NCBI RefSeq assembly: GCF_041154675.1
Contig: NZ_AP031322.1
Location: 2,293,812-2,357,811 of the forward strand
DNA length: 64,000 bases
Direction of reading: 5' to 3'
Origin: Sulfurisphaera javensis
GTDB lineage: Archaea; Thermoproteota; Thermoprotei_A; Sulfolobales; Sulfolobaceae
The notes below the pieces were generated by a model that saw only the letters and a list, made by a program, of their open reading frames with translations, searched no databases and was not told the origin of the DNA. A program made the translations under genes and the position numbers. Within the stretch, counting starts at the first letter, position 1. Each line of letters begins with the position of its first letter. Shown in pieces: positions 652 through 18,524 of this stretch.

Positions 652-2742
652 TTAATAATAATCTAATTCATCCAATCTTATAGGCACTTTGGTTATTTTT
701 CTTTTTAGAACATCTTCTACTGCACTAGTTACTGCAGCCACAGCAACTCCAACTGGGATTTCTCCAATTCCCTTAACACCACCTGGAGTAATGGGGGAAG
801 GAGTAGGTACTATATTAACTTCAATCTCTGGTAAATCAGCTGCTGTGGGTAAGCCGTAATCAGCTAAACTTGTAGTTAATAAGTTTGCATTATCGTCGTA
901 TACGTACGCTTCATATAACGCAATCGAAATTCCTATGGCAGTCCCTCCAATTATTTGCTCTTTAACTAGATCTTCATCTATCGGATTTCCCGGATCAATA
1001 TAAACTACGTGCTTTATTGGTTTAATTCTTCCATCTTCAATTCTAACTACAGCTAAATCACATGCAAAAGGATAAGCATTATACCTATACTTCCCTTGTA
1101 ATGTAAAAGTATAATCTACTTCCTCGCCTTCGAATTGAGTTATACTAAGTTTGCCATGTTCTCCTTCAAAATAGCCATTCTTATACTCGACTTTTCCTAG
1201 CAAGTTTTCCGCTTTTCTCTTAAGCTTAGCTTTAAGCTCCTCTACTGCCCCTGAAATTGCGCCATATGTAAATGCAGCCATTCTACTCCCTCCAGGTCCA
1301 AAGGAAGATGGTAAAATTGTATTGTCAACTATTTCATAAGTAACGTTTTCAATAGGAACTTCAAGTAGTTTTGACACTAATAACATAGCAGTATGTTCAT
1401 TACCTTGTCCTTCAGGTCCAAAACCTAACGAAACGACAATTTTTCCATTCCTTATTGATAATTTAACCCTTTCACTACCTGAAGGCGTACTTGGGTCTGT
1501 CGATAACGCTAAACCTACACCAGTCCTTTCATCTCTCATAGAGAATATATCCTTTCTTGAGAGAGCAAGTTCTAGCAAACCTCTAGGGTTTCCGGAATCA
1601 TAATAGGCGAAACCGGAATCATAAGGAAAAGAGTCTATAGCATTAATTCTCCTTATCTCAGCTCTATCAATCCCTAATTCATCAGCTACAGCATCCATAA
1701 CTCTTTCTAATGCCCATGTATGAGGTGGTGTTCCTGCTCCTCTAAACGCTCCCGGCGGGTTCTTATTTGTTGCAACTAATGTAGCTGTATATCTTATTCC
1801 GGGTATTTTATATGGCCCAGTTAAATGCCCTAAAGGCTTAAAAGGTTGTCCATTTTCCTTTGAAGCACCAACGTCTTCCCAAATGTGGAAGTCAAGAAAG
1901 TTAACTTTTCCAGAAGTCTCATAATAAACATGAATCTTGAACTTCCTTTCTGGACCACTTGCATTAGATGCTTGTAAGTGTTCAGTCCTCGTCTCTATCC
2001 ACTTTATTGGTACTTTGAATTTTAAAGACGCAAATCCTAAAACAGCTAAATATTTGCCTAAAGAGAATTTGGAACCAAAACTTCCTCCTTGTCTTGCATT
2101 CTTATGTATTACCCTTACACCTAAAGCTCTTTCAATTTCTGCAGAAACAGCATTTCCTGCTTGTAAATTTGAAATTATTTCTATAGCGTTTTCCTTAGGA
2201 TAAATAATAGCACCAAAGGGTTCTATTGGATTTCCACTACTTTTTGACCAATATAAATCCAGCTCTAGATGCTTTCCTTGAGAAGAAATCTTACCAAATT
2301 CAAATGTTTGTTCTTTAACTATATTGGTTTTAAGCTCATCAAATACATAAACTTCGCCTTTAAGCGCTTTTTCTATGTTTGGAATAGGTTCTAATGGTTC
2401 ATAATCTACTTGAACTAATTCCGCTAAGTCTGTTGCTTCGTATGGATCATTAGCTAAGACTAGTGCTACTGGTTGGCCTACATATAATGCCTTCTTTGTT
2501 GCAATTACTAAAGTTGATAAGCTGGCTCCTTCTCTATCTCCAGATTCAACTGCTTTAGCCATTATATCTTTTCCAGTTAATACTTGTGCTCCATGTTTAA
2601 TAGCATCAGAAGCGTCAATATTTCTTATTAATGCATGTGGATAAGGACTTCTAACAAAAATCGCATATTTACCTTTAAAGGGATAGTCATCTATATAATT
2701 GCCTTTTCCTATAAGTAATTGTTCGACATCAAACCTTTTCAT
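652..2742 (-). CDS. Molybdenum hydroxylase large subunit (CoxL/xanthine dehydrogenase family), stand-alone
   Basis: A 696-residue protein of the xanthine dehydrogenase/aldehyde oxidase family, molybdenum-binding large subunit. Visible family marks are QGGSFGSK near 218-225, the GAFRGAG loop at 331-337 next to the molybdenum site, GPEGQGNEH at 442-450, and GVKGIGE at 655-661, whose Glu661 sits where the catalytic base is found. The loop is not the form I CO dehydrogenase AYRCSFR loop, so oxidation of an aldehyde or purine is more likely than of CO. The family normally works with a 2Fe-2S small subunit and an FAD subunit, but neither is encoded next to it here. It is slightly short for the family (usual large subunits exceed 740 residues). 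Substrate unknown. Confidence 0.88.
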   Translation of the reverse strand: MKRFDVEQLLIGKGNYIDDYPFKGKYAIFVRSPYPHALIRNIDASDAIKHGAQVLTGKDIMAKAVESGDREGASLSTLVIATKKALYVGQPVALVLANDPYEATDLAELVQVDYEPLEPIPNIEKALKGEVYVFDELKTNIVKEQTFEFGKISSQGKHLELDLYWSKSSGNPIEPFGAIIYPKENAIEIISNLQAGNAVSAEIERALGVRVIHKNARQGGSFGSKFSLGKYLAVLGFASLKFKVPIKWIETRTEHLQASNASGPERKFKIHVYYETSGKVNFLDFHIWEDVGASKENGQPFKPLGHLTGPYKIPGIRYTATLVATNKNPPGAFRGAGTPPHTWALERVMDAVADELGIDRAEIRRINAIDSFPYDSGFAYYDSGNPRGLLELALSRKDIFSMRDERTGVGLALSTDPSTPSGSERVKLSIRNGKIVVSLGFGPEGQGNEHTAMLLVSKLLEVPIENVTYEIVDNTILPSSFGPGGSRMAAFTYGAISGAVEELKAKLKRKAENLLGKVEYKNGYFEGEHGKLSITQFEGEEVDYTFTLQGKYRYNAYPFACDLAVVRIEDGRIKPIKHVVYIDPGNPIDEDLVKEQIIGGTAIGISIALYEAYVYDDNANLLTTSLADYGLPTAADLPEIEVNIVPTPSPITPGGVKGIGEIPVGVAVAAVTSAVEDVLKRKITKVPIRLDELDYY

Positions 2743-6198: not shown

Positions 6199-6789
6199 TT
6201 AACGTATATTAGAGTACGAGATCTTCGATAATTGATTATCAATATTTAGCTTTATAAGCATTAATTTTCCCTTTTCTAAAAGTCTTACGAGTACTCCACT
6301 TTCAACGTCGAAGAACATATTTACTTCCAAGTTTATAAAATCTTTTTTTCCTACAATAGAGAATTTATAACTTTTTATTGACCCAGCATCGCATACGGCA
6401 TCAGTTATTCCAACGTCAAATCGTGTGACATTTAATGGAAAATTTTTGAATAAATTGTCAACATTAACTTGAGACATTCCCTTACTATTTATCACATCAA
6501 TATATTTTTTCGGAATTATTGGAAAATTTGAACCAAAATTTTGCGATAGGTCATGCTCATAAACACCAGGTTCAATCTTCATTAATACAATTTTTTCTAT
6601 ATCTATTTCTGATACATCTCTTGCTAGCAATAAATTTTCATCTGTTGACACTTTATATGTTAGTTTGCTATTGTCAACATTAAGAATAGTATATAATACT
6701 TTTCCAGCATATTTTTTATGTAGGAATGATGCTAAAAATTCTATATTTATTTTATACTCTAGTACCAAACCAGGTCTTAGTTGCATCAC
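6199..6789 (-). CDS. Hypothetical cytosolic protein, partner-like gene of peptide locus (left arm)
   Basis: A 196-residue protein with no signal peptide or membrane segment. I do not recognise a named family. Its layout matches that of the secreted protein at 8769-9587: an N-terminal L-E-Y-K-I strand, then G-K-V-L-Y-T-I-L-N-V-D, a middle I-V-L-M-K-I-E-P-G-V-Y strand, and a C-terminal F-F-D-V-E-S-G-V-L-V-R-L-L strand pair. The two look like cytosolic and extracytoplasmic versions of one beta-rich domain. It lies 129 bases downstream of the 38-aa peptide gene on the same strand, with a T-rich terminator between them, so it probably has its own promoter. A carrier, chaperone or immunity role for the peptide is possible but only inferred. 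Confidence 0.7.
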   Translation of the reverse strand: MMQLRPGLVLEYKINIEFLASFLHKKYAGKVLYTILNVDNSKLTYKVSTDENLLLARDVSEIDIEKIVLMKIEPGVYEHDLSQNFGSNFPIIPKKYIDVINSKGMSQVNVDNLFKNFPLNVTRFDVGITDAVCDAGSIKSYKFSIVGKKDFINLEVNMFFDVESGVLVRLLEKGKLMLIKLNIDNQLSKISYSNIR

Positions 6790-6888
6790 CTAAATAATAT
6801 ATAATGTATATAATAAATCTTAATGAACAGTATCTTATTATTATAAATTGTTATTATGTTAAAATAATTTATATAAAAATGAATTATA

Positions 6889-6905
6889 GAAAAAAAATAA
6901 AAAAC
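6889..6905 (-). terminator. T-rich transcription terminator after 38-aa peptide gene
   Basis: On the minus strand the peptide stop codon is followed within about 15-30 bases by two runs of T (A-runs on the plus strand at 6890-6904). Archaeal RNA polymerase terminates at such tracts without a hairpin, so the peptide gene likely makes a short transcript of its own. Confidence 0.55.
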
Positions 6906-6918
6906 TTACTTTTTATCT

Positions 6919-7035
6919 TTATCCAGCTAGGGACTGAAGGAGGCTAACTAATAGGCTTAATACTGCTTGTAGTAGTTGTTCTAATAGCTGGAGTACTACT
7001 TGTAGAATACTTGATAAGGCGGATGTTGCGGCCAT
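6919..7035 (-). CDS. Leucine-rich 38-aa peptide (peptide 1)
   Basis: An ATG at 7035 opens a 38-codon frame ending in TAA at 6919-6921. The peptide begins MAATSALSS and ends SLLQSLAG. Thirteen of 38 residues are Leu, the rest mostly Val, Ala, Ser and Gln. Glu19 is the only charged residue, and there is no Lys, Arg, His, Cys, Trp or Tyr. It has no Tat or Sec signal and would form one long amphipathic or membrane-inserted helix. Residues 9-29 align without gaps to residues 23-43 of the peptide at 7446-7586, with 11 of 21 identical including S-x-L-Q and QLLQ. A TATA box with short leader upstream and T-runs downstream support a real gene despite its size. Function unknown. Confidence 0.72.
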   Translation of the reverse strand: MAATSALSSILQVVLQLLEQLLQAVLSLLVSLLQSLAG

Positions 7036-7076
7036 TTTTGGTCTGTATATTCTTTATGAATAATACGTATAAATAT
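7036..7076 (-). promoter_or_regulatory. Promoter and short leader of peptide 1
   Basis: On the minus strand TTTATAC (plus 7067-7073) lies 32 bases upstream of the ATG, with an A/T stretch before it as BRE. The bases just before the ATG read AGACCAAAA. The 46-aa peptide gene has the same arrangement: TTTATAC 30 bases upstream and AGACCAAAT before its ATG. Confidence 0.6.
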
Positions 7077-7404
7077 TTTATTGATAAGTAACTTGTTTAC
7101 TAATTCAAAAAAGGAAAATATGAAGCTATAATACTTTATTCAGCAGATCGGCTTGACCGTTTAAAATCTATTTGACTAAAATACTCTATATAAATTTAAC
7201 CTTGTAAACCCTTTATTTGGAACGATATTAGAATCTATTAATTTCTATTTAAAGCCTTAAGTTATATTTTTATTTTATATAAAAAAATTCTTATCTCCAT
7301 AGATTATATCTTATTTTAATATATATAAAGTTTTACGTATTCATATATGTTTTATGATAGAGTTAAATAGATTTTCAATAAGTAAACAGACATTACAATC
7401 AAAA

Positions 7405-7445
7405 ATATTTTTATACTTAAATATCTATATTAAAATAGACCAAAT
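7405..7445 (+). promoter_or_regulatory. Promoter and short leader of peptide 2
   Basis: TTTTTATAC at 7408-7416 is a good archaeal TATA box. AGACCAAAT directly precedes the ATG at 7446. The leader word AGACCAAA is shared with the divergent peptide 1 gene, although the intervening bases differ, which argues for selection on the 5' end of both mRNAs. The bases between the two promoters (about 7077-7404) hold no ORF I can support. Confidence 0.6.
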
Positions 7446-7586
7446 ATGTTATTTGTAGAAAGTCTATTAGGACTAGATTCAGCATTAAATGGTCTAGTAA
7501 GTGCTCTAGTATCTCTTTTGCAGAATCTATTAGCTTTAGTAGTACAACTGCTACAAACCTTGTTAGGTGCCTTAGCTAGTCTCTAA
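7446..7586 (+). CDS. Leucine-rich 46-aa peptide (peptide 2)
   Basis: An ATG at 7446 opens 46 codons ending with TAA at 7584-7586. Eighteen residues are Leu. Leu sits at positions 7, 10, 14, 17, 21, 24, 28, 31 and 35, a continuous 4-3 heptad spacing typical of a coiled coil or helix bundle, and most other positions are also hydrophobic. Glu5 and Asp11 are the only charged residues, with no basic or aromatic residue except Phe3. The C-terminal half is paralogous to the 38-aa peptide on the other strand. There is no signal sequence. Such a helix could insert in or lie on membranes, or self-assemble. The nearby ABC exporter and secreted protease make export conceivable, but this is inference. Confidence 0.74.
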   Translation: MLFVESLLGLDSALNGLVSALVSLLQNLLALVVQLLQTLLGALASL

Positions 7587-7596
7587 AAAAAGATAA

Positions 7597-7615
7597 TTTT
7601 TTTTATTTTATTTAT
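7597..7615 (+). terminator. T-rich terminator after peptide 2
   Basis: Eleven bases after the stop codon is a run of eight T followed by further T-rich bases. This would end a transcript of roughly 160 nt, separating the peptide from the genes that start at 8330. Confidence 0.6.
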
Positions 7616-7689
7616 TATTAAATTATATAGCAATATTTAGTTTTATTTTATATAATTTTAGTTATATAAAACCTTTTTTACCAAATATT

Positions 7690-7812
7690 TTAGGATAGAT
7701 AATTGGAATCTAAGGAGTTTTCGATTATAGATGTTATATCAGTCAGAATGTAATACATTAAAATTAAAGATATAAGAAGTTCTATTTCTTTTAGTGTAAC
7801 ATTTATTTTCAT
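7690..7812 (-). CDS. Possible 40-aa membrane microprotein
   Basis: A minus-strand frame of 40 codons from ATG 7812 to TAA at 7690-7692. Residues 10-26 are hydrophobic and could form one membrane helix, with a polar C-terminus. An A/T-rich TATA-like element precedes it at a somewhat short distance. It has no homologue I recognise and could be chance. The remainder of 7616-8329 shows no other supportable feature. Confidence 0.22.
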   Translation of the reverse strand: MKINVTLKEIELLISLILMYYILTDITSIIENSLDSNYLS

Positions 7813-8329
7813 TGTTTTCTACTTAATATAATTACATCTGTTAGAGATAATTGAAATATAGTCTTAACATGAAAATTACTTTATTTTACGATTTATTTTT
7901 TCGATATTGTTCAGTTGCAGTCATGAAAATCAACAAATAATAGATATAAATTGTAATCAACATTATTTTCTATGTATTATGCGATCCTCACAAATGAGTT
8001 TTTGTATATTTACGAGAACTGACTTTGCGTATATATAATTTCTTTATGTTTTTAATTATTTTTACATATTACATACTAATTTACATGACTGTATTCAAAG
8101 AGTCCTTTTTCTTTTCGTAATACTAGTTCCTTATAATATTCTAGATAAACATGATATTACAATACTTAATCCTTATTTATAAAGTAATGATTATCGAGAT
8201 AAGAAATGCTCTCTATAAGCTTTTTTATTCATAGTTGCAATAAATTTTGTATCTCCATAGCGATACTACTTACATACTCTATTCATAAGAGGATAAATTT
8301 TATAAATGGCATTTGCAATTTTATATTTA

Positions 8330-8767
8330 ATGAATAGAAGAACTACAAAAGAGAATAATGGCAATCTAAAAACTTATCACATAGTCTTCCCATATTATGT
8401 CTTTGAAAATTGGTTTGAACTCCTTTCTGAGGAGAACAAAGAACGTAAAAAGATATTAAAAGCTCCATTAGAGTTTGATTTCTTTCTTAAGTCATTAGCT
8501 GAATATTTTCCATATAGGCAAATTGAAGAAATTTTAAGAATTTTGGCTGAGTATAAAATAATTCCTTATGTTTTAGACTATACTACTATATGGAAAAGGT
8601 TACAAAATGTCAACAATAAGCAAGCAATGAATATGCCTAGAAAAAAATCTAATAAGTTACTTAAATTAACTTTAGTTTTAGATAAAGGTAAAAATAAGAT
8701 TGTGTCTGTTCAAATAAATATAGAAGATAAAAATAATGTTGTATCTTTTACATATAGTGGTGCATAA
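8330..8767 (+). CDS. Transposase-derived hypothetical protein (N-terminal IS5-like domain, catalytic core missing)
   Basis: A 145-residue protein when started at the ATG at 8330. A TATA box at 8298-8307 fits a leaderless start there better than the earlier in-frame ATG at 8306. Residues up to about 90 (VFPYYVFENW, then FLKSLAEYFPYRQIEEIL and DYTTIWKRL) resemble the N-terminal domain of IS5-type transposases common in Sulfolobales. The tail has the LLKLTLVLDKGKNKIVSVQ strand pair seen early in the DDE domain, but then ends, so the catalytic acidic residues are absent. The protein is therefore either a deleted transposase relic or a domesticated DNA-binding remnant. The stop codon is one base before the next gene's ATG, suggesting cotranscription with it. 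Confidence 0.55.
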   Translation: MNRRTTKENNGNLKTYHIVFPYYVFENWFELLSEENKERKKILKAPLEFDFFLKSLAEYFPYRQIEEILRILAEYKIIPYVLDYTTIWKRLQNVNNKQAMNMPRKKSNKLLKLTLVLDKGKNKIVSVQINIEDKNNVVSFTYSGA

Positions 8768-8768
8768 T

Positions 8769-9587
8769 ATGAGAGAGAAAAATTATTTACAGAATATTAT
8801 TATATTAGCCTTTCTTGGTTTTCTTGTAACTTCTACCTTTAGTATAGCTAACGTTTATTTTATACCCAATTATGTTGTTAAAGATTCTAATTATACATAT
8901 AAAGTAATTATGTCTATAAGCGGTTTTGGGGGATTAATAAGTGAAACAAAAAGTGGTTTTGTAATATATAAAATAGACAATTATTCTTCAGATAATTTCA
9001 CATTTACTGTAACATCATTTGGTAATCTGTTTACCTATCTAAAGGATGAGAACATAAATCCACAAAAAATTCTATTAGTTTATGTAAATAACGGAACATA
9101 TACAATAAACTATAATGAATCATTAAAATTCCCTTCTATTAGTTTTTATTTGTTACAAAAAATAAGAGAAAACGAAACTATAATGGTTATTACTACTAAT
9201 GCTGGATCCTTTTATGTTTATAAAATAAACCAAAGTTTATCCAAAAATGGTGAGCAAGGAATTGTTAATCTTTATGTGGATAATAGTTCTGGTTTATTAA
9301 TAGAATTAAATGAGTATGCGTCAGACACATTAGGATCAGTAAATATTACTTTTGAGTTATATAACTTTACTCAAGTTTTAAATTCTTCTAATAAGAATAA
9401 TACTTTATCTTCCACTTCTTTTAGCAAATCAAATTTTGCCAATAGCTCGCAATTAAATTTAAATAATTCTTTAACTTATGATAGTACTTCAAAAAATGAT
9501 AATTATCTTATAGCAGTTGCAATAGTTGGTGTAATTATATTCAGCGTATTGCTTTTTCGTAATAGGTTTATTAAACGAAAGTTTTAA
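8769..9587 (+). CDS. Secreted, membrane-anchored hypothetical protein (right-arm partner of peptide locus)
   Basis: A 272-residue protein from the ATG at 8769, chosen because it directly follows the previous stop; an in-frame start at 8736 would lie inside that gene. It has an N-terminal signal/anchor helix, an outside domain with more than ten N-X-S/T sites, a Ser/Asn-rich stalk near 210-240 and a C-terminal membrane helix followed by FRNRFIKRKF, so it is anchored with a short basic cytosolic tail. The outside domain shares the strand pattern of the cytosolic 196-aa protein at 6199-6789 (Y-T-Y-K-V start; L-Y-V-D-N-S-S-G-L-L-I-E-L near the end). No named family recognised. It lies between the transposase-like gene and the sedolisin gene, 25 bases from the latter. 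Confidence 0.75.
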   Translation: MREKNYLQNIIILAFLGFLVTSTFSIANVYFIPNYVVKDSNYTYKVIMSISGFGGLISETKSGFVIYKIDNYSSDNFTFTVTSFGNLFTYLKDENINPQKILLVYVNNGTYTINYNESLKFPSISFYLLQKIRENETIMVITTNAGSFYVYKINQSLSKNGEQGIVNLYVDNSSGLLIELNEYASDTLGSVNITFELYNFTQVLNSSNKNNTLSSTSFSKSNFANSSQLNLNNSLTYDSTSKNDNYLIAVAIVGVIIFSVLLFRNRFIKRKF

Positions 9588-9612
9588 ATAATTCTTAAAT
9601 ATAATTATATAT

Positions 9613-11409
9613 ATGAATAGGAATACTAGTTTAATAGTAATATTTTTGATTTTGTTAATAGCAGAAGTGAGTAGTCAATCTATAGTAAGTCTATCGTATT
9701 CACAACCATATTACTTAGTATATAACTCCCCGTTCTATTCACTAATTTATCAGTCCGAATATGTTGGACCACTGAACGGATCTCAAGTAATATACTTTGC
9801 AGTAGTACTTAATTTTACGAACTTTTCCAGTCTGATGCAAACTACAAATGAAATTTTAAATCATGTAATGGGATTTATGTCACCACAACAATTCAGAGAA
9901 TATTATTATCCATCTACCTCATATATAAACTCAGTAATCTCGTATATGAAATCTTACGGAATTTCATTCATAGGACAGTACGGATTATTATTAATTTTTA
10001 AAGGTACAGTGAATGAAGTGGAGAATGCGTTTAATACTTATATTAATCTTTACTTCTATCCTACTGGAGAAATTTTTTGGTTTGGAGAACCAGGATTGCT
10101 GACATTCGTGCCATTTTATTTTTACGCAAATAATGTAACGCCATCATTGCCTTATAATATAGGTAAGCATATTATTGGAATAATTGGACTAAATAGTATA
10201 GACCCTACTATTTATCCCTCTCTTTACAATTCTAACTTTCAATTAGCTTCTAATCCATTAATATCAAATGTTACTGTAACTCCCTCTATAATAGCCCAAT
10301 ATTTTAATTTTACTAAAGTCTATGAAGAAAATAAGCTAGGTCAAGGTATGAGTATAGGAATTATAGGTGAACCCGAAAGTTATGTGAATTCTTCCGATAT
10401 TTATCATTTTTGGAATAAATTTAGCATAGTACCTCGAGAAGGTAAGTTAAACGTTATAGTTTTTGGGAGTAACACTAGTGAAGGAGAAAGCGCTGAAAAT
10501 GAAATGGATGCTGAATGGGCTGGAGTTTTAGCGCCTGATGCTAACATATATATTGTATTTAGCGACGGTTATGTAGGTGGGAATAAAATGATAGGGAATT
10601 TACTTAACTATTACTATGAATTCTATTATATGATTAATTACATTAATCCAGATGTTTTATCAGTTTCTGTTGAATTACCTGAATCATTTCTCGCTGCATA
10701 TGATCCTGTAATGTTGTATGCCATTAATAATCTTCTTATTCAAGCAGCAGATCAAGGAATATCAGTTATTGCTGCAGCAGGTGATTGGGGTTACGAAAGT
10801 AATTTCCCTCCCATAGATTTTATGATTAATGTTCAAAACACTATATGGTTCCCTGCAAGCGACCCATTAGTAACCTCTGCTGGTGGTATATTTGTTAATG
10901 TTTCTTCTACTGGTAAGGTTCTAAATATAAGCGGATGGGATTATAGTACTGGTGGTTTTAGCGTAGTTTTTTATGGGCAGTCATACGAGATGAATTCCTT
11001 AATTCCTGGAACATTAACGCTTTTCAGAAAATACCCAGATATAGCGTTTGTTGCTGATGGAGGATATAATATCACAGAATATGGTTCTGGTTTACCAATG
11101 ATTTATAATGGAAGTACTTATTACTGGTTCGGTACAAGTGGAGCGGCTCCTATGACAGCTGCAATGGTTGTATTATCGGGTCATAGACTTGGATCCTTAA
11201 ACTATATCTTTTATTATATTTCGTACAGTGGTGAAATTGATATAAACGGTTATGAGATGCAAGGCTTACCACCATGGATACCAATTACTTCTGGTTACAA
11301 TCCAATGCCTGCTACATACGGTTGGAACTATGTGACTGGAATAGGTACATATAATGCGTATGCTATGGTCTATGATCTAGATTTGATCTATAGTGTTGTG
11401 TATGGATAA
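9613..11409 (+). CDS. Secreted sedolisin-type serine-carboxyl peptidase (S53) with propeptide
   Basis: A 598-residue protein with a signal peptide (about 1-22), a propeptide domain like the pro-kumamolisin activation domain (about 50-170) and an S53 catalytic domain. Glu295 and Asp299 in E-N-E-M-D have the E-x3-D spacing of the sedolisin acid pair. Asp391 in AAAGDWG matches the oxyanion-hole Asp, and Ser509 lies in the FGTSGAAP motif. A GWNYVTGIG segment near 570 resembles the calcium-site region. Sedolisins are acid proteases, suited to the acidic outside of Sulfolobales. The gene sits between the anchored protein and the ABC exporter genes, so it may process a product of this locus. A general scavenging protease is the alternative. 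Confidence 0.9.
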   Translation: MNRNTSLIVIFLILLIAEVSSQSIVSLSYSQPYYLVYNSPFYSLIYQSEYVGPLNGSQVIYFAVVLNFTNFSSLMQTTNEILNHVMGFMSPQQFREYYYPSTSYINSVISYMKSYGISFIGQYGLLLIFKGTVNEVENAFNTYINLYFYPTGEIFWFGEPGLLTFVPFYFYANNVTPSLPYNIGKHIIGIIGLNSIDPTIYPSLYNSNFQLASNPLISNVTVTPSIIAQYFNFTKVYEENKLGQGMSIGIIGEPESYVNSSDIYHFWNKFSIVPREGKLNVIVFGSNTSEGESAENEMDAEWAGVLAPDANIYIVFSDGYVGGNKMIGNLLNYYYEFYYMINYINPDVLSVSVELPESFLAAYDPVMLYAINNLLIQAADQGISVIAAAGDWGYESNFPPIDFMINVQNTIWFPASDPLVTSAGGIFVNVSSTGKVLNISGWDYSTGGFSVVFYGQSYEMNSLIPGTLTLFRKYPDIAFVADGGYNITEYGSGLPMIYNGSTYYWFGTSGAAPMTAAMVVLSGHRLGSLNYIFYYISYSGEIDINGYEMQGLPPWIPITSGYNPMPATYGWNYVTGIGTYNAYAMVYDLDLIYSVVYG

Positions 11410-11443
11410 AAGTTTTAATATATCCATTTTTTATATATACTTA

Positions 11444-12364
11444 ATGTCAATTGAAGTTTCTAATCTCGTTAAGACTTTCGGAAAAGTTGTTGCGCTTGAA
11501 GATATATCTTTTAAGATTTCTTCTCCGGGTTGTTATGGAATTTTAGGTCCTAACGGGGCAGGTAAAACAACCCTTTTTAAGATTATGTCTACTTTAATTA
11601 AACCAACAAATGGTTCTGTGAGAATTAATGATTATGACGTATTTAAAGATAGGGAAAAAGCTTTAAAGAACACAGCATTTTTAGTAGGAACTCCAGAACC
11701 TTATGACTATCTTACAGTAAAAGAATTTATTGAATTTGCTGCTAAACTTAGAGGAAAAAAAGTTGATGTTAAGAGTTTAAAAGAAGAGTTAGATTTACCG
11801 GATTTAAGATCAAGATGTGGCGTTCTATCAAAGGGGCAAAAAAGAAGAGTGTATTTAGCTGCTCTTTTAGCACAAGATCCTCAAATTCTAGTTTTAGACG
11901 AGCCCACAGATGGGCTTGACCCAATAGAGATTTATGTTATAAAAAACATAATAAAAAAACTGAAGAAAGAGAAAATAGTAGTCTTTTCTTCGCATATTTT
12001 GTCTGAAGTCCAAGAATTATGTGACTATATAATAATTATAAAAAGAAGATTGCTATGGCAGGGCAGTAAAGAGAAACTTATGAGGATGTTTTCACCAAAA
12101 AGTTTGAGAATAGAATTTCTTTATCCAATATTTATAGAAGAAATTAAAAATTTAATAGGTGATATTTCTACTAATATAGAACAAGTAGAAGATAGTAATA
12201 GAACATTTATTGTTCATTATTCAGGTAATGATAATGATCGGCAAAAAATTCTAGAAAGATTAATAAAATTAGGAATACGAAGTTTCACAGATAACACATC
12301 TACATTAGAAGAAAGTTATATTAGATTATTAGAAAGATTTGATAAGGTGATAAATTATGATTAG
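11444..12364 (+). CDS. ABC transporter ATP-binding protein (ABC-2 type exporter)
   Basis: A 306-residue ATPase when started at ATG 11444 (M-S-I-E-V-S-N); an upstream in-frame start at 11393 lies inside the sedolisin gene and adds no family sequence. Walker A GPNGAGKTT is at 35-43, the signature LSKGQ at 128-132, Walker B LVLDEP at 149-154 and the H-loop His at 184. The roughly 100-residue C-terminal extension is typical of ABC-2 exporter ATPases for drugs, peptides or lipids. It starts 34 bases after the sedolisin stop and overlaps the permease gene by eight bases, so all three are likely cotranscribed. The transported substrate is unknown; the peptides encoded upstream are candidates. Confidence 0.92.
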   Translation: MSIEVSNLVKTFGKVVALEDISFKISSPGCYGILGPNGAGKTTLFKIMSTLIKPTNGSVRINDYDVFKDREKALKNTAFLVGTPEPYDYLTVKEFIEFAAKLRGKKVDVKSLKEELDLPDLRSRCGVLSKGQKRRVYLAALLAQDPQILVLDEPTDGLDPIEIYVIKNIIKKLKKEKIVVFSSHILSEVQELCDYIIIIKRRLLWQGSKEKLMRMFSPKSLRIEFLYPIFIEEIKNLIGDISTNIEQVEDSNRTFIVHYSGNDNDRQKILERLIKLGIRSFTDNTSTLEESYIRLLERFDKVINYD

Positions 12365-13160
12365 TAAGTCAAGTAACTTATGGCTTATTATATCTTCAAA
12401 TTTCAAATTTTATTATAGATCAAAAAGGTTTCAAATTCTATTACCATTATCATTAGCAATATCTTACATAAATGTAATTCTGGTGTTCTTACATATTGTT
12501 ACTAAGCCATCTAGTCCTTATACTTTCATGGATGCTACATTATCTTATTATTTACCATTATTTATTGTAATAGCGGGATTATTTGGAGGAGATTTAATAA
12601 GTAAGGACTTTAGCAGAGAAGGTCTTTTTACGTTGTCACAACCTTTAAAAAGAGAGACAATATTTGTAGCTAGATTTATATCAGCACTAATAGCTTCAAT
12701 TATAGCTGTTTTAATATTCTTAGCGGGGGTTATGTCATCTACACTTCTGTTATATTCACATCTAGTTGGCAATTGGCCTCTAATAATTGCCTTTTCAATA
12801 TTTGGTATGGCATCATTACTAGCTTTTACTTCGTTATTTAGTACTTTAAGTAAGAATCCCTCAATATCAATAACTATATCTATATTTGTTCTTCTAATAA
12901 TCTTTCCTCTAATAGAAGCTATTCTTACTGATATCCAGTATGAACCATGGTTCCTTATAATCTATGGTTTAACCGTAATATCCAACGTTGCAGAACCTAC
13001 TTATCCTCCTCATATACTCAAGGAAGTAACAACAAATGGAATTCAACGTATCTATAACGTTACAATTCCGGAAAGTATAGAAATACTTCTCTCTTATTTT
13101 ATTATAAGCATCTTACTTTCAATTATAGTTTATAGATCACGTCAACTATCTGAAATCTAA
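12357..13160 (+). CDS. ABC-2 type transporter permease
   Basis: A 267-residue membrane protein with six predicted hydrophobic helices. The G-D-L-I-S-K-D-F-S-R-E-G-L motif after helix two is the typical cytosolic coupling sequence of ABC-2 permeases (compare NatB/Nod-type). An outside loop of about 50 residues precedes the last helix. It overlaps the 3' end of the ATPase gene. The pair would form an exporter as a dimer. The next gene starts almost 200 bases later, so the operon probably ends here. Confidence 0.88.
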   Translation: MISKSSNLWLIISSNFKFYYRSKRFQILLPLSLAISYINVILVFLHIVTKPSSPYTFMDATLSYYLPLFIVIAGLFGGDLISKDFSREGLFTLSQPLKRETIFVARFISALIASIIAVLIFLAGVMSSTLLLYSHLVGNWPLIIAFSIFGMASLLAFTSLFSTLSKNPSISITISIFVLLIIFPLIEAILTDIQYEPWFLIIYGLTVISNVAEPTYPPHILKEVTTNGIQRIYNVTIPESIEILLSYFIISILLSIIVYRSRQLSEI

Positions 13161-13352
13161 TATTCTTTTATCTATATAAAGCTTATGTTGATACTGGTAT
13201 ATATTTATTAGAACTTTGGTTATAATATACCTAAAAATTGGTACCAATTTATTTGATTACTTTTTCTAAAATGAAATTATATCAAGATAGTACTAATAAT
13301 CATATGAAATAGTCAACAAAATTTTTTATATTTATAAGTAGTAATAAATAGT

Positions 13353-13814
13353 ATGGGAGTTATAATTAAATCTGGGTCTAGTTTAAAGAAAATAAGTATT
13401 TATACGCTTGTTGATGTAGCAGTATTTTTTATTACAGCTTATTTAGCTCCTTTAGTTAAATATAATTTAGCAGATATAGTAGTATTTGACATTTCATTCT
13501 TTCTTTTGATACTATTTGTAATACTACTTGTTCTCTCTATTAGAAAAGGAAGCATAATTGTTACAGATGAAGGGATTTATTTAAGATGGCTAAGGAAATA
13601 TTACATACCATGGAGTGAAGTTAACAACATAGATCTTAAAAATACAAGGCTTTTTATATCACCTTTTACCAGAAAACTTGTAAAGGAATATGCGATACAA
13701 ATTTATACAAATAATAAATTATTTGAGATAGAAGTTCCAAAAGCGAAAGAAGTATATGAGAAAATGACAGAGAAAATACAAAAAATACGTAAGAATAATA
13801 TGAATGAAAATTGA
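13353..13814 (+). CDS. Small membrane protein with PH-like domain
   Basis: A 153-residue protein with two membrane helices (about 15-35 and 45-65) followed by a cytosolic beta-rich domain. The sequence I-V-T-D-E-G-I-Y-L-R-W-L, then I-P-W-S-E-V-N-N-I, resembles the bacterial PH-like domain (bPH/DUF2244-like) often attached to two helices. An IFITPRTRK-like segment follows. The C-terminus is basic and helical. Role unknown. It is separated from the exporter and may be unrelated to it. A TATA-like TTTTTTATA lies about 25-30 bases upstream of the ATG. Confidence 0.65.
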   Translation: MGVIIKSGSSLKKISIYTLVDVAVFFITAYLAPLVKYNLADIVVFDISFFLLILFVILLVLSIRKGSIIVTDEGIYLRWLRKYYIPWSEVNNIDLKNTRLFISPFTRKLVKEYAIQIYTNNKLFEIEVPKAKEVYEKMTEKIQKIRKNNMNEN

Positions 13815-14537
13815 AAAATTTCTTAATTCAAAATTTAATTCATTAACTCCTAAGTATTCATCTATTAATAATTTAGAGTATTAAGATTTCTATATTATAA
13901 CGATGTATACTATTCAATTATAATAATAAAAATTATGCATCTAGTATAAATTTCATTAATTAAAAATAAATACTGTTAGTTATAAAGCATCTTATAAATA
14001 ATAAAGAAATTTATATAATTATAAACTATACTGATTGCATTAAGGTATGATATCTATACAAAAGCATAGTAATGTCGAAAAGCATTAAAAATGATTTAGG
14101 TCACATAAGAATTAATTACTCTGGGACTAAGAACGACTAATTTGATAATCCTGCTTAATATGAGTGTTTTTATAAAAAATATCTATTATCTGTACTTCTG
14201 CCTTTAAATAAGTGATGCAATATCTAATCGATGACTCAAGTCTTAGGTTTTTATAGTGTGGGGAAGTAAGACTATTGCCTAGTAGAGAATGAGCAATCAA
14301 CTGGTAATTTATGGTATCTATAGTTTTAATGATAGCTTCTTAATTTCAATGTGAGAATACAAATTATTTCTATGATTTTCCTATCTACTCTGACCTTTAT
14401 CATATACAAATCTTCTCTTAAATTTTCGCATAGAGACGATTGAGATTTTTACTATATATGATACCATGACTAGCTTTATTATTTCATTTAATTAAACGAA
14501 GAGAGACTTTTTAAACGTTTATTATTAACAATATTAT
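13815..14537. other. Intergenic region, possible transposon relic
   Basis: About 720 bases without an ORF. Around 14250-14320 a broken plus-strand frame reads C-G-E-V-R-L-L-P-S-R-E and then stops, faintly like the C-terminus of TnpB proteins. The match is too short to call. Nothing else was recognised. Confidence 0.3.
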
Positions 14538-14984
14538 ATGAAGTTTATTTATTTAGGAATTATCCTTATAATAATTGGAATTAGTCTTTTATCCTTAGTA
14601 CTCTTAGCTAATTCAAAGTATGTTAAAATAAACAGTAAGGTTGAACTATATCCAAATTCTACTTATGAAGTTCCTTATATAGGTAATGCTGAAGTACTAT
14701 TTAGTTATAATTTTACTTCTCCGGTAGAAGTTTTCGGTTACCCTTCTTCTGCAGTAAAAATTAATGATAGCTTAGATTATGTAATTTGCTTCTTTTCATC
14801 TTCGCCAGGAAATATAACAATAAAGAATAACAATGTTTTCCCTTCTATAGTTAATTACACTCTTTATGAGACTAGTGGTATAGGATTATATTCAGATTAT
14901 TTAATCTCATTAGGCCCTATTATTATCACGTCTGGTATTGTTTTAATCATATATGAAAAAATAATAAGGAAAAGACCAAGATGA
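14538..14984 (+). CDS. Hypothetical membrane protein with extracytoplasmic domain
   Basis: A 148-residue protein: N-terminal membrane helix (about 5-25), an outside domain of about 85 residues with several N-X-S/T sites and only one Cys, then a second membrane helix and a basic tail (EKIIRKRPR). The ATG is preceded at a leaderless spacing by TTTAAACGTTTATT. No family recognised. It lies alone between two gene-free stretches, on the same strand as the peptide/exporter block. Confidence 0.6.
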   Translation: MKFIYLGIILIIIGISLLSLVLLANSKYVKINSKVELYPNSTYEVPYIGNAEVLFSYNFTSPVEVFGYPSSAVKINDSLDYVICFFSSSPGNITIKNNNVFPSIVNYTLYETSGIGLYSDYLISLGPIIITSGIVLIIYEKIIRKRPR

Positions 14985-15310
14985 AGATTATATTAAGCTA
15001 GTTAGGTTTCTGTACAAGTTGGGTCTCATTGGATTTCGTTTACTATATATTATTCTTCTCATCCACCTTGTGGAAACCGTATATTTTAGTTTCTTTTATC
15101 ACTACTATTTACTAATTTTCTATACACATGTAGTTTGATCTAAGAGCATTTCACGCTTTTATGGAAATTGTTTTCAACAGCCGATTTTGTTTTTATAAAT
15201 TCTCTATATAAAGGATTAATTTTCCGTAAGAATGAGGATACAAAGCATTTCAAAACTTTTAGCTTATTTCATTTTTTGTTTTATGTAAATCTTTTTTAGT
15301 AAAAGATAAA
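14985..15310. other. Intergenic region, nothing recognised
   Basis: About 325 bases between convergent genes, AT-rich, with no ORF or repeat I can support. Confidence 0.4.
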
Positions 15311-16093
15311 TCAAGATTCATATTTGCTAAGGTATCTAAGTCTATCAGATAATGAAGGATGAGTTCTGAAAAAGCTCTTATCCTCTATTGTATTTATTAA
15401 TTGTTGTTTTATAAAATATAATTGGAAATCAGGAATATCTCTGAGTAAATAACTAGGGATTGTTCTGCCTAAATAACCTATTTTTATTAAAGCGTTTTCT
15501 AAATACACTGTTAGCCATCTGTTATTTTTAACTGCTGTAATGTCAGCCCTTTTTTCTAACCATCTGTGAAATAAAATAAAAATAGGGAAGACAAGAAAGA
15601 AAAGAACCATGCCTAAAATGAAGTTTATATTAAAGGCAAAGAGATATATAATATCGTATAGAATTAAGCCAATTACTTGAATTTCCATGTCATGATTTCT
15701 TATGTGAGATAATTCATGTGCTGTAACAGCTATTAATTCATTATCTTGTAAGGAAGTTAAAATAGATGAAGTATAGCCTATACCCTTGAAAAATATATTT
15801 CCAAACGCAAAAGCGTTAGTGTAATCAGTATACGTAATAAACACTTTAGGTTTTCTCATTCTGAATAGATTAGAAGTGTAGGAAACAATAGAATCTAATC
15901 TCAAATCGTAACTTCTTTTTAACTTAAAAGAAATAATCATAATATAAGGAGAAAGAAGATACCATATAAAGAAGACTAAGCTTATTTCTCCAATCTCTAA
16001 ATAAAAATTTGAAGGAAAGAATGAAGAGACAACGAAAGAGAGAAGTAATAAAACAGCAAAAGAAAGAAAATAATATCTCCACCAATACTTCAT
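15311..16093 (-). CDS. M48 (HtpX-like) membrane zinc metalloprotease
   Basis: A 260-residue protein with two N-terminal membrane helices, a zinc site HELSH at 126-130 followed by IRNHD, two further hydrophobic helices at about 140-175, and Glu180 in W-L-E-K-R-A-D, which supplies the third zinc ligand in M48 peptidases. The arrangement is that of HtpX, which degrades membrane proteins with the active site on the cytosolic face. The C-terminus has the family-typical T-H-P-S-L-S-D-R-L sequence. The gene stands alone on the minus strand. Its small size agrees with archaeal HtpX relatives. Confidence 0.88.
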   Translation of the reverse strand: MKYWWRYYFLSFAVLLLLSFVVSSFFPSNFYLEIGEISLVFFIWYLLSPYIMIISFKLKRSYDLRLDSIVSYTSNLFRMRKPKVFITYTDYTNAFAFGNIFFKGIGYTSSILTSLQDNELIAVTAHELSHIRNHDMEIQVIGLILYDIIYLFAFNINFILGMVLFFLVFPIFILFHRWLEKRADITAVKNNRWLTVYLENALIKIGYLGRTIPSYLLRDIPDFQLYFIKQQLINTIEDKSFFRTHPSLSDRLRYLSKYES

Positions 16094-16732
16094 AGGAAAA
16101 TATTTGAGTAAAAGATAATATATATTATGAAACTAAAAATATGTTCTAATCCTCGCATCTTAATTGTCTCATGAATTTTATCTTCTATTTCAGACAAAAT
16201 TAATAATTTTACTTTTCCATCATAATTAAGTAACTTGTTAAAGCATTTATTCTAGTATTCCAGTAGATCTCTTTTCACCAATTATTAATATTCTCTATCT
16301 CACCATTAATTACAGTATAAATTCCTTCAATCTCCATAAATATAAACATCCATACTTTAGTAGAATATATAACGTTTAGCTTCTTTCATATCATTAATTT
16401 GAGTTCCTCAATTCTGAGGTGAAAACATTAATTTTGAAGATAGGGTATAATGTTCTGAGGTAGGGTGTATAAACACTCTCTTTTTATAAGGAAGGATTTA
16501 ATTTCTTCCTCGTCTACATGTTTCGCCATCTGGATTAACAGTAAAAATTACATTTGCAGTTGTTTTACTTTCTGGTCTTCAATATGTAAGTAACTTCATT
16601 TTTAAGGAAAGTTTAGTTAATTATATTTATAATCTTTAGAAAATAATAGCAAAAACGAAAAGTAGAAACCAAGATAAATAATTTATCTTGATATCTTTCG
16701 TTCTTCTTAACTTAGAAGAAAGCAAATATTTA
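16094..16732. other. Intergenic region with a short direct repeat
   Basis: About 640 bases without a supportable gene. The word TTCTGAGGT occurs twice about 40 bases apart (near 16415 and 16452). No transposon ends or RNA gene were seen. Confidence 0.4.
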
Positions 16733-17410
16733 TTATCTGAAATACAATTCTCCATGATATGGGATTAAGATCTTATATGGTAGTGCCATTAAATTATTAA
16801 ATGCCTCTAGTGCTTTCTCATAATCCCAACAGAAGAACTTAAGAGGAGGTTTTACTCCGTTTATATTTCTAATAGCATCCCCTGCAATTAAAATACCATC
16901 TCCAAATAATGCTATATGACCCTTTGTATGTCCGGGAACATGAATTACTTTGAATCCAGCTAATTCTTCTCCCCCTTTTAATTTGACATCAATAGTAGGT
17001 AATTCAATTTTCATATTTTCTATTCTATTAATTGTTTTTCTTATTTCTTCCTCTGGTATATTAAACTCTTTTTTTACTTCTTCTACGGGAATTTTTCCTC
17101 CAAGATTAAACTCCTCTAACTCATGAGCATATATTTTTGCTTTAGCTTCTCTCCTTATCTTTTCTGCATTACCGAAATGATCCGGATGAGCATGAGTAAT
17201 TACAATATCTGAAATATCTGAAATTGAATATCCCCAAGATTTTAAGTATTTCTCTAAATTCTCAAAATTTTCCGGTAAGCTAGTGTCAACTAACATTAAT
17301 CCTCCGCTAGGTCCATTTTCGATTAGCACAACATTATGATTTAAAATAGTGCCGAAAAAGTCTGGTTCAAGCAATTCTATTATTCTTATTTTATTGTTTA
17401 TTTTTACCAT
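16733..17410 (-). CDS. Metallo-beta-lactamase fold hydrolase
   Basis: A 225-residue MBL-fold protein. The metal motif T-H-A-H-P-D-H lies at 72-78, giving ligands His73, His75, Asp77 and His78. A later V-P-G-H-T-K-G-H supplies another His, A-G-D-A the bridging Asp, and P-Y-H-G-E near the C-terminus the last His. It belongs to the broad glyoxalase II-like group, whose members act as thioesterases, persulfide dioxygenases or lactonases. The gene overlaps the 3' end of the U32 gene by 20 bases, so the two are probably cotranscribed. A sulfur-related thioester or persulfide substrate would fit the sre neighbourhood but is unproven. Confidence 0.88.
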
Positions 17411-18524
17411 CTTCTCTAAACCTCGGAATAAGTTCTATAGGTGGTCTTATCTTATCTCTAGGCAATTCTCCCTCAACTCTTATGGTTTTTTCTGCTATAA
17501 TATCACAATATTTACAATCTTCACAACTTCTTTCCTCACATCTATTATATTTAAAATAACTTAACCAGTTAGGAGGAAATGCATTATTATCAACATATAT
17601 TTTCATCAAAATTTCATATTGGGATGAGGAATTTATTTTCCTTAATGCGGAAGTAGTAGCTCTACCTTGAACATAACTTAAAATATCTAATAAGTTTCCC
17701 TCGTATTTTCTTTCTGAATAAGCTTTTACTACATTAACTAACCAGTCTGTCTTTTTATTTCTACCAGCTATCTTAAATCTGTCTATTCCTATTTCCTCGT
17801 AATAATGAAGATCTTCTGGTCTTATCCATCTCATTCTAATTATGTTAGCAAAATCATTTCTAACTTCTGTAGCGCAGAAAAGGACTGGAAATTCATACCA
17901 AATTCCTTTTATTCCATCTTTTGCTGAGGCATAAGAAGTCACTTGATCATGGGTTAACTTATATGGGCAACCCCATAAACAAGTGTTATTTGTGATTACT
18001 TCTATGTCAGCATTATATTTCTTAGCCAACTTTGCAGATTGTTCCAAAAGAGAGAAATTACGGTTAGTATCCTCATCCATAATAACAGTATTAACTCCCA
18101 TCTTTAGGTATTCCTCAACTTTTCTTATGTGAGTAATTCTTGCAAATGAAGAAACTGAAACTTCAATATCAGGGTACTCTCTTTTTATGAAATATATTAA
18201 AAAAGGTAAGGCAACTATAAAGCCATCAACTCCGAAATTAACTAACTTATCTACTTCTTTTTTCAAATCTTCATGAAATTTTTCACTATACTCTTTTCCA
18301 TATAAATTAGCTGTATTCATAGTGTAAAGAAATTTTATCTTATAAGAATGGAGTAGTTCAATATGGGACTTTAATCTTTCGTCATCAACTTTAGGTAAAA
18401 TAAATGATGCTCTTCCATGTCCTGTCAAAGTTTCTGTCTGGCTTCCATACATATATTTTACTGGATATTGATGAATTTTCTCTACTAACTCATCGTCAAA
18501 ATTTGTTGCAACTACGAGACGCAT
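17391..18524 (-). CDS. U32 family protein (peptidase U32/UbiU-UbiV-like), Fe-S type
   Basis: A 377-residue protein of the U32 family. Conserved family parts are an early [14 protein letters not shown] segment, a barrel-like region, and [10 protein letters not shown] (C-x3-C), followed by a Cys in F-P-V-L-F-C. The C-terminus carries another cluster [12 protein letters not shown]. Proven relatives UbiU and UbiV hold 4Fe-4S clusters and hydroxylate ubiquinone without oxygen; others modify rRNA or tRNA. A role in oxygen-independent quinone synthesis would fit a sulfur- and hydrogen-respiring archaeon, but this is inference. A TATA box at about 18541-18552 sets a leaderless start. A CATTGGACT word lies about 100 bases upstream. 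Confidence 0.8.

Follow-up and report, generated by a model that had tools for sequence, protein, structure and literature searches.

A conserved micropeptide and ABC-2 exporter locus in Sulfolobaceae encoding a candidate leaderless amphipathic peptide

A 64,000-nucleotide stretch of the Sulfurisphaera javensis genome, hereafter the window (source genome G000, 2.57 Mb; G000:C1:2293812-2357811), carries two very short, divergently placed, leucine-rich open reading frames (ORFs), which raises the question of whether these are genuine genes and, if so, what is done with their products. Genes of 37–46 amino acids (aa) are easily overlooked by annotation. In searches of 229 genomes of the class for the peptide and a partner protein, and of 31 Sulfolobaceae genomes for the permease of a two-gene ABC-2 exporter, the three were found together as one conserved set. 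The locus is read here, with a probability of roughly 0.5, as encoding an exported, membrane-active, leaderless amphipathic peptide together with a dedicated exporter and proteins that handle it. This archaeal micropeptide-exporter locus is real and conserved, and no earlier description of it for Sulfolobaceae was found in the literature on archaeal peptides and leaderless bacteriocins, subscription literature lying mostly outside the search.

Peptide A (38 aa) is encoded at 6919..7035 on the minus strand and peptide B (46 aa) at 7446..7586 on the plus strand, in agreement with a preliminary description of the window that had also pointed to their richness in leucine (34% in A and 39% in B) and to the lack of basic residues (no Lys, Arg or His in either). 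With peptide A as query, homologues were recovered in six other genomes (G002, G003, G006, G011, G014 with two copies, and G021), and a profile search added a third copy in G014, giving up to three copies per genome; five of the loci are labeled L041 (G002), L042 (G003), L043 (G011), L044 (G006) and L045 (G014), and the G021 locus is divided between two contigs. The family ranges from 37 to 46 aa, with LQLLEQLL as its consensus core. A hidden Markov model (HMM) built from the homologues, with the window sequences excluded, recovered peptide A at E 4e-8. Between L041 and L043 the peptide genes showed a non-synonymous divergence (dN) of 0.01 and a synonymous divergence (dS) of 0.54 over 37 codons, so that change was mostly synonymous and the homologues are, on this pattern, under purifying selection. 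By these sequence criteria peptide A is a genuine conserved gene. The contrary explanation, that the frames are regulatory leader ORFs or chance low-complexity frames, accords with their shortness and low complexity and with the failure of an independent profile to recover peptide B (E 0.22 or no match with an HMM built without it), but it is hardly credible in view of the aa conservation with mostly synonymous change, the presence of homologues at corresponding places in seven genomes and the divergent strands, each with its own leader, and for peptide A it is largely refuted.

Peptide B, for which the sequence evidence is weak, is probably a diverged paralogue of A, since 11 of 21 aligned residues are identical without gaps (alignment A1), a figure that had been reported correctly, since the ungapped score of 63 stands above a shuffle mean of 32 (p about 0.0015), and since the leader is identical and composition and position agree. 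The common leader, GACCAAANATG, has two exact copies in the 64 kb, both on peptide start codons; an exact match search placed GACCAAAAATG at the start codon of peptide A (7033..7043, minus strand) and GACCAAATATG at that of peptide B (7438..7448, plus strand), and the same leader precedes the peptide genes of L041 and L042. TATA-like boxes are located roughly 30–35 nucleotides (nt) 5′ of the ATG in several members of the family and T-tracts are found 3′ of the peptide stop codons, which together suggest that the peptide transcripts are short, nearly leaderless and terminated separately. Inverted repeats between the two peptides, considered as a possible operator, were AT-rich and not convincing. 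Two peptide genes also occur in tandem on the minus strand of L045 (11907-12023 and 12175-12294), and this pair, like that of the window, may represent a two-peptide arrangement; its downstream copy, L045c, is diverged, with Gly-Leu repeats and a few charged residues. The symmetry of two peptides and two partners is specific to G000.

The homologous peptides start at once with MAES or MAAT and are conserved from the start Met, and no cleavable leader, basic n-region or cleavage-like N-terminus was seen in alignment A1, peptide A itself being devoid of a signal peptide. The helical hydrophobic moments of peptides A and B exceeded those of shuffles of their own residues (p = 0.0005, the lowest value that the test could return), and an amphipathic helix moment above that of shuffles was obtained for all family members. 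Basic residues are limited to one in L045b and two in L045c, and Trp is absent throughout. In a Pfam scan of the window genes the peptides gave only sub-threshold matches to unrelated families and matched no known bacteriocin family. A hydrophobic stretch in each peptide passes a simple transmembrane (TM) threshold, which, like the strict co-occurrence with exporter and partner described below, would suit a non-secreted small subunit or modulator acting on the ABC transporter or the partner within the membrane, with something else as the exporter substrate. Such a role is decidedly unlikely, considering the strongly amphipathic character of the peptides, whose polar residues line one face, the presence of up to three diverged peptide copies per genome against one exporter, and the separate promoter-like and terminator-like signals of the peptide genes.

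Strong peptide matches (E < 1e-8) were found in 7 of the 229 genomes, all Sulfolobaceae, and the same seven contained the partner at full length; the many other partner-profile matches were short and mostly covered a C-terminal low-complexity and TM segment. The ABC-2 permease of the exporter (12357..13160, plus strand) was likewise restricted, within the 31 family genomes, to the seven that carry the peptide (E < 1e-10), as a single copy in each and at the locus. The co-occurrence that the preliminary description had proposed to check was thus found for peptide, partner and exporter, and the observation that it had named as adverse, an exporter always occurring without the peptides, was not made, the permease being found only in peptide-bearing genomes. 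Presence of the peptide is patchy, with some members of genera g1, g3, g4 and g9 having the locus and others lacking it, and no peptide was found in genus g7 or in the congener G001 in the profile search of the 229 genomes. The window exporter shares 46% identity with those of the congeners G002 and G003, and these share 81–82% with that of G011, which belongs to another genus, values that suggest exchange between genera or old paralogy; together with the patchy presence they are as expected for exchanged accessory loci. Beyond Sulfolobaceae the peptide matches were weak (best per-genome E 0.0014 in the 229 genomes) and were taken as chance. In a partner search of named genomes the sole match was Sulfolobus sp. 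UBA167. A viral contig collection yielded no relative of the partner, on which ground a viral origin was rejected.

The partner encoded on the plus strand (8769..9587) has a signal peptide in the form of an N-terminal hydrophobic segment, a predicted LolA-like ectodomain and a C-terminal TM segment; its ORF had been listed from 8736, and the ATG at 8769 agrees better with the homologues. The second partner (6199..6789, minus strand) is a single open frame covering the ectodomain only, without signal peptide or TM segment, and, judging from its sequence, could either bind the peptide in the cytosol or be a copy in decay. That the two are paralogous, as initially described, is supported by a BLASTP E value of 1e-5 and by several residues that are invariant over all eight partner homologues. 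The further statement that each peptide is followed on its own strand by a partner needs amending on both arms, the minus partner being the ectodomain alone and another ORF (8306-8767) intervening on the plus strand. A structural model of the plus partner had a mean predicted local distance difference test score (pLDDT) of 73.5, the ectodomain (about residues 50–212) scoring mostly above 80, and a Foldseek search of the ectodomain against the PDB gave LolA, microsomal triglyceride transfer protein, apoB and LmcA as best matches, each of them a hydrophobic-cargo fold, with E values down to 8e-5 and probabilities mostly of 0.97–1.0 at TM-scores of only 0.15–0.30 and a high root-mean-square deviation (rmsd). 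The model thus points to a likely hydrophobic-cargo fold through a weak match, and would make a LolA-like carrier or acceptor role at least as likely as immunity. LolA and LmcA are the top structural matches of the predicted ectodomain; the partner differs from these carriers in its C-terminal TM anchor, its occurrence in a single-membrane archaeon and the low TM-scores, and no sequence similarity of the partner to LolA or LmcA was found.

The plus arm of L041 to L045 consists of the peptide, a zinc-ribbon/helix-turn-helix (HTH) protein, the anchored partner, an ABC ATPase, the ABC-2 permease and a small NAC-like protein. The zinc-ribbon/HTH protein is of the InsA type (IS1 type), with a match above the Pfam cut-off for L041, and its gene overlaps the partner gene. 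The products of the divergent arm are a second NAC-like protein, a secreted protein about 350 aa long and, in G002, G003 and G011, a two-TM PH-like protein. In the five loci the two NAC-like proteins, of about 60–75 aa, are paralogues of each other; the copies of G002, G003 and G011 pass PF01849, and those of G006 and G014 are recognized only via the pair profile (A2). Strong matches of this profile were confined to the five loci, with the housekeeping NAC scoring far lower in most family genomes. The pair resembles archaeal NAC in the NAC domain that three loci carry above the Pfam cut-off and in a weak match to MTH177 (1tr8, E 0.18), and differs from it in its size, which leaves no space for a UBA domain, and in being a locus-specific pair besides the housekeeping NAC. 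NAC-like genes, the zinc-ribbon/HTH gene and the gene for the 350-aa protein were not found at the window locus.

At the window locus the place of the zinc-ribbon/HTH gene is occupied by an ORF of 153 aa (8306..8767, plus strand), located between peptide B and the partner, ending 1 nt 5′ of the partner ATG and derived from the N-terminal region of an IS5-type transposase. Its first 105 residues are about 50% identical to elements in g5 genomes, and it is single-copy in G000; on sequence grounds it is a possible regulator or remnant, and transposase DNA-binding domains (IS5-type here, IS1-type elsewhere) have possibly been recruited repeatedly as regulators. A two-TM protein with a PH-like domain is encoded in the window at 13353..13814 (plus strand) and is homologous to the divergent-arm gene of G002, G003 and G011, giving four loci with this protein; its best bPH_6 match (E 0.048) is below the cut-off, and the G006 and G014 loci showed no such protein. 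In the PDB the PH-like profile also matched ubiquitin, over a C-terminal stretch only, and these matches were disregarded.

The 350-aa secreted family of the divergent arm (L041 7238-8296, minus strand) had no Pfam match and its model reached a pLDDT of only 48. Distant relatives sit elsewhere in G005, G011 and G003 (L140 8403-9476, L141 7859-8890 and L142 8756-9858); the G003 copy is split into separate frames and the relative in G011 is flanked by two proteins related to L041 4792-6450. After the NAC-like gene of L041, on the same strand (11967-17477, plus), and also in L042 and L043, there follow genes for an 823-aa CARDB protein and two FtsX/MacB-type permeases with their ATPase; MacB/Lol-type transporters next to these loci would fit with extraction of a hydrophobic cargo.

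A peptide copy in G014 and another in G021 are immediately followed by two pilin-like genes (175 and about 610 aa), and the same pair is found downstream of the exporter in G006 (L045 3864-6647, minus strand; L046 178-2867, plus strand; L044 11856-14339, plus strand), the products having pilin-like N-terminal helices. This arrangement is what would be expected of an exported structural or surface-active peptide that coats cells, sulfur or biofilm or forms cross-alpha-like fibers, perhaps with the pilin-like proteins, as would the presence of as many as three peptide genes in a single genome and a weak and probably compositional match of the peptide profile to the designed cross-alpha amyloid peptide 6c51 (E 0.25). 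The pilin similarity is weak (E 0.38), however, and pilin-like genes are missing from the window, G002, G003 and G011 loci; the patchy presence inside genera also suits an accessory weapon better, so that we regard a structural peptide as unlikely.

If the peptide is instead exported and membrane-active, the gene set could be ordered into the following pathway. A short, nearly leaderless transcript ending at the T-tract would supply the peptide in excess of the operon proteins, and the nascent hydrophobic chain would be kept soluble by the NAC-like mini-chaperones in most loci and possibly by the anchorless partner (6199-6789) in the window. The two-gene ABC-2 exporter, whose ATPase is encoded at 11393..12364 on the plus strand with a likely start at about 11444, would carry the peptide across the membrane, a step that we consider rather probable. 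The anchored partner, with its LolA-like ectodomain on the outer face, would accept the peptide or shield the producer membrane, the PH-like two-TM protein would aid export or immunity, and the transposase-derived HTH protein would act as regulator; these chaperoning, acceptor and regulatory roles are what we infer from gene content. Outside, at pH 2–4, Glu and Asp would be largely protonated, and membranes would be the target of the uncharged-to-anionic peptide, which would most likely be directed against relatives (as a leaderless archaeocin) and with less likelihood as a surfactant or matrix peptide. Antagonism toward other cells falls somewhat short of probable. The same set of proteins also admits a peptide that is toxic inside the cell and is neutralized by the partner or the NAC-like proteins, in the manner of a type I or II toxin-antitoxin system, with a small hydrophobic peptide adjoining a possible cytosolic binder (6199-6789); this is very improbable, the main partner being membrane-anchored with its domain outside, the linkage to the exporter being constant and the scanned genes showing no PADLOC or toxin family match. 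A defense system was also rejected in the absence of a PADLOC match for these genes.

Several observations weigh against an exported membrane-active peptide. The window locus, without the NAC-like and zinc-ribbon/HTH genes, would have to function without them; most membrane-active bacteriocins are cationic and the peptides are not; the low TM-scores and high rmsd burden the modeled LolA match of the partner; the PH assignment, drawn from sequence profiles, is sub-threshold; and the pilin-like genes at or near the locus in three genomes could reflect a surface-structure role. Of the earlier proposal of a peptide with immunity, processing and export, the export part, with handling proteins, gives the best account, processing by the sedolisin is not supported and immunity through the partner is one possible role.

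To our knowledge, ribosomal peptide antagonism in Sulfolobales is represented only by the large sulfolobicins. These proteins reportedly carry signal peptides, as Ellen et al. are said to have noted in 2011. Sulfolobicins (SulA/SulB) are antagonistic products of Sulfolobaceae, as is proposed for the peptide, and differ in comprising two subunits of about 20–22 kDa (PMC5733018) against 37–46 aa and no signal peptide, in line with the distinction first drawn. Direct kinship was ruled out by size and by distribution, with the peptide not found in g7 or G001.

Closer parallels are offered by the leaderless bacteriocins (enterocin DD14/L50, aureocin A53, lacticin Q), which share with the locus a short peptide without leader, an adjoining ABC transporter, a two-TM protein (PH-like at the locus by a sub-threshold match) and, in some clusters, an HTH gene (PMC8657885, PMC11580447). 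In enterocin DD14, DdE (141 aa, two TM segments, one PHb2 domain) is essential for export and its loss poisons the producer (PMC8657885). The locus differs in being archaeal, in its uncharged or anionic peptide without Trp, whereas the aureocin A53 type is highly cationic and Trp-containing, and in its two-gene exporter and LolA-like and NAC-like proteins. The phenol-soluble modulins of Staphylococcus are likewise leaderless amphipathic helices with a dedicated ABC exporter, Pmt, and a nearby regulator gene, and without Pmt they build up in the cytosol and the producer dies (PMC5354552). The Pmt exporter is made of four components and is accompanied by the GntR-type repressor PmtR, compared with one ATPase, one permease and a zinc-ribbon/HTH (IS1 type) protein or IS5-type fragment here, and the window ATPase scored 95.7 bits against the PmtA model (cut-off 350). 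No sequence similarity of the locus peptides to leaderless bacteriocins or phenol-soluble modulins was found. As charge, sequence, exporter make-up and regulator all differ, the locus may by analogy be said to work like these systems and not to be a member of them. An archaeal pathway of its own, leading from NAC-like mini-chaperones through the ABC-2 pair to an anchored, LolA-like receptor facing outward, undescribed, without known bacterial equivalent and with anionic helices suited to acid pH, is conceivable and at present doubtful. A conserved micropeptide family with a dedicated exporter would provide a small, synthesizable and testable archaeal peptide, shed light on the handling of leaderless hydrophobic peptides by an archaeon with a single membrane and point to specialized functions for NAC-like and LolA-like proteins.

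The plus arm of the window also contains, as first described alongside the ABC-2 exporter, a secreted acid protease, a sedolisin of the pro-kumamolisin type with its domain confirmed (9613..11409, plus strand), which lies outside the conserved core. None of the other peptide loci contains a sedolisin, and matches (E < 1e-10) occur in 24 of the 31 family genomes, 22 of which have a complete or almost complete copy, and include a second sedolisin of G000 at 854520. The window gene is a local, lineage-specific insertion of a paralogue, and its assignment to the system as the processing protease was abandoned, as it is missing from all other copies of the locus and widespread elsewhere in the family. 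Near the locus, a membrane protein with a HELSH motif (15311-16093, minus strand) is probably an HtpX-like M48 metallopeptidase, and the window further encodes at 652-2742 (minus strand) the molybdopterin-binding large subunit of an aldehyde/xanthine dehydrogenase-type enzyme, as assigned by Pfam.
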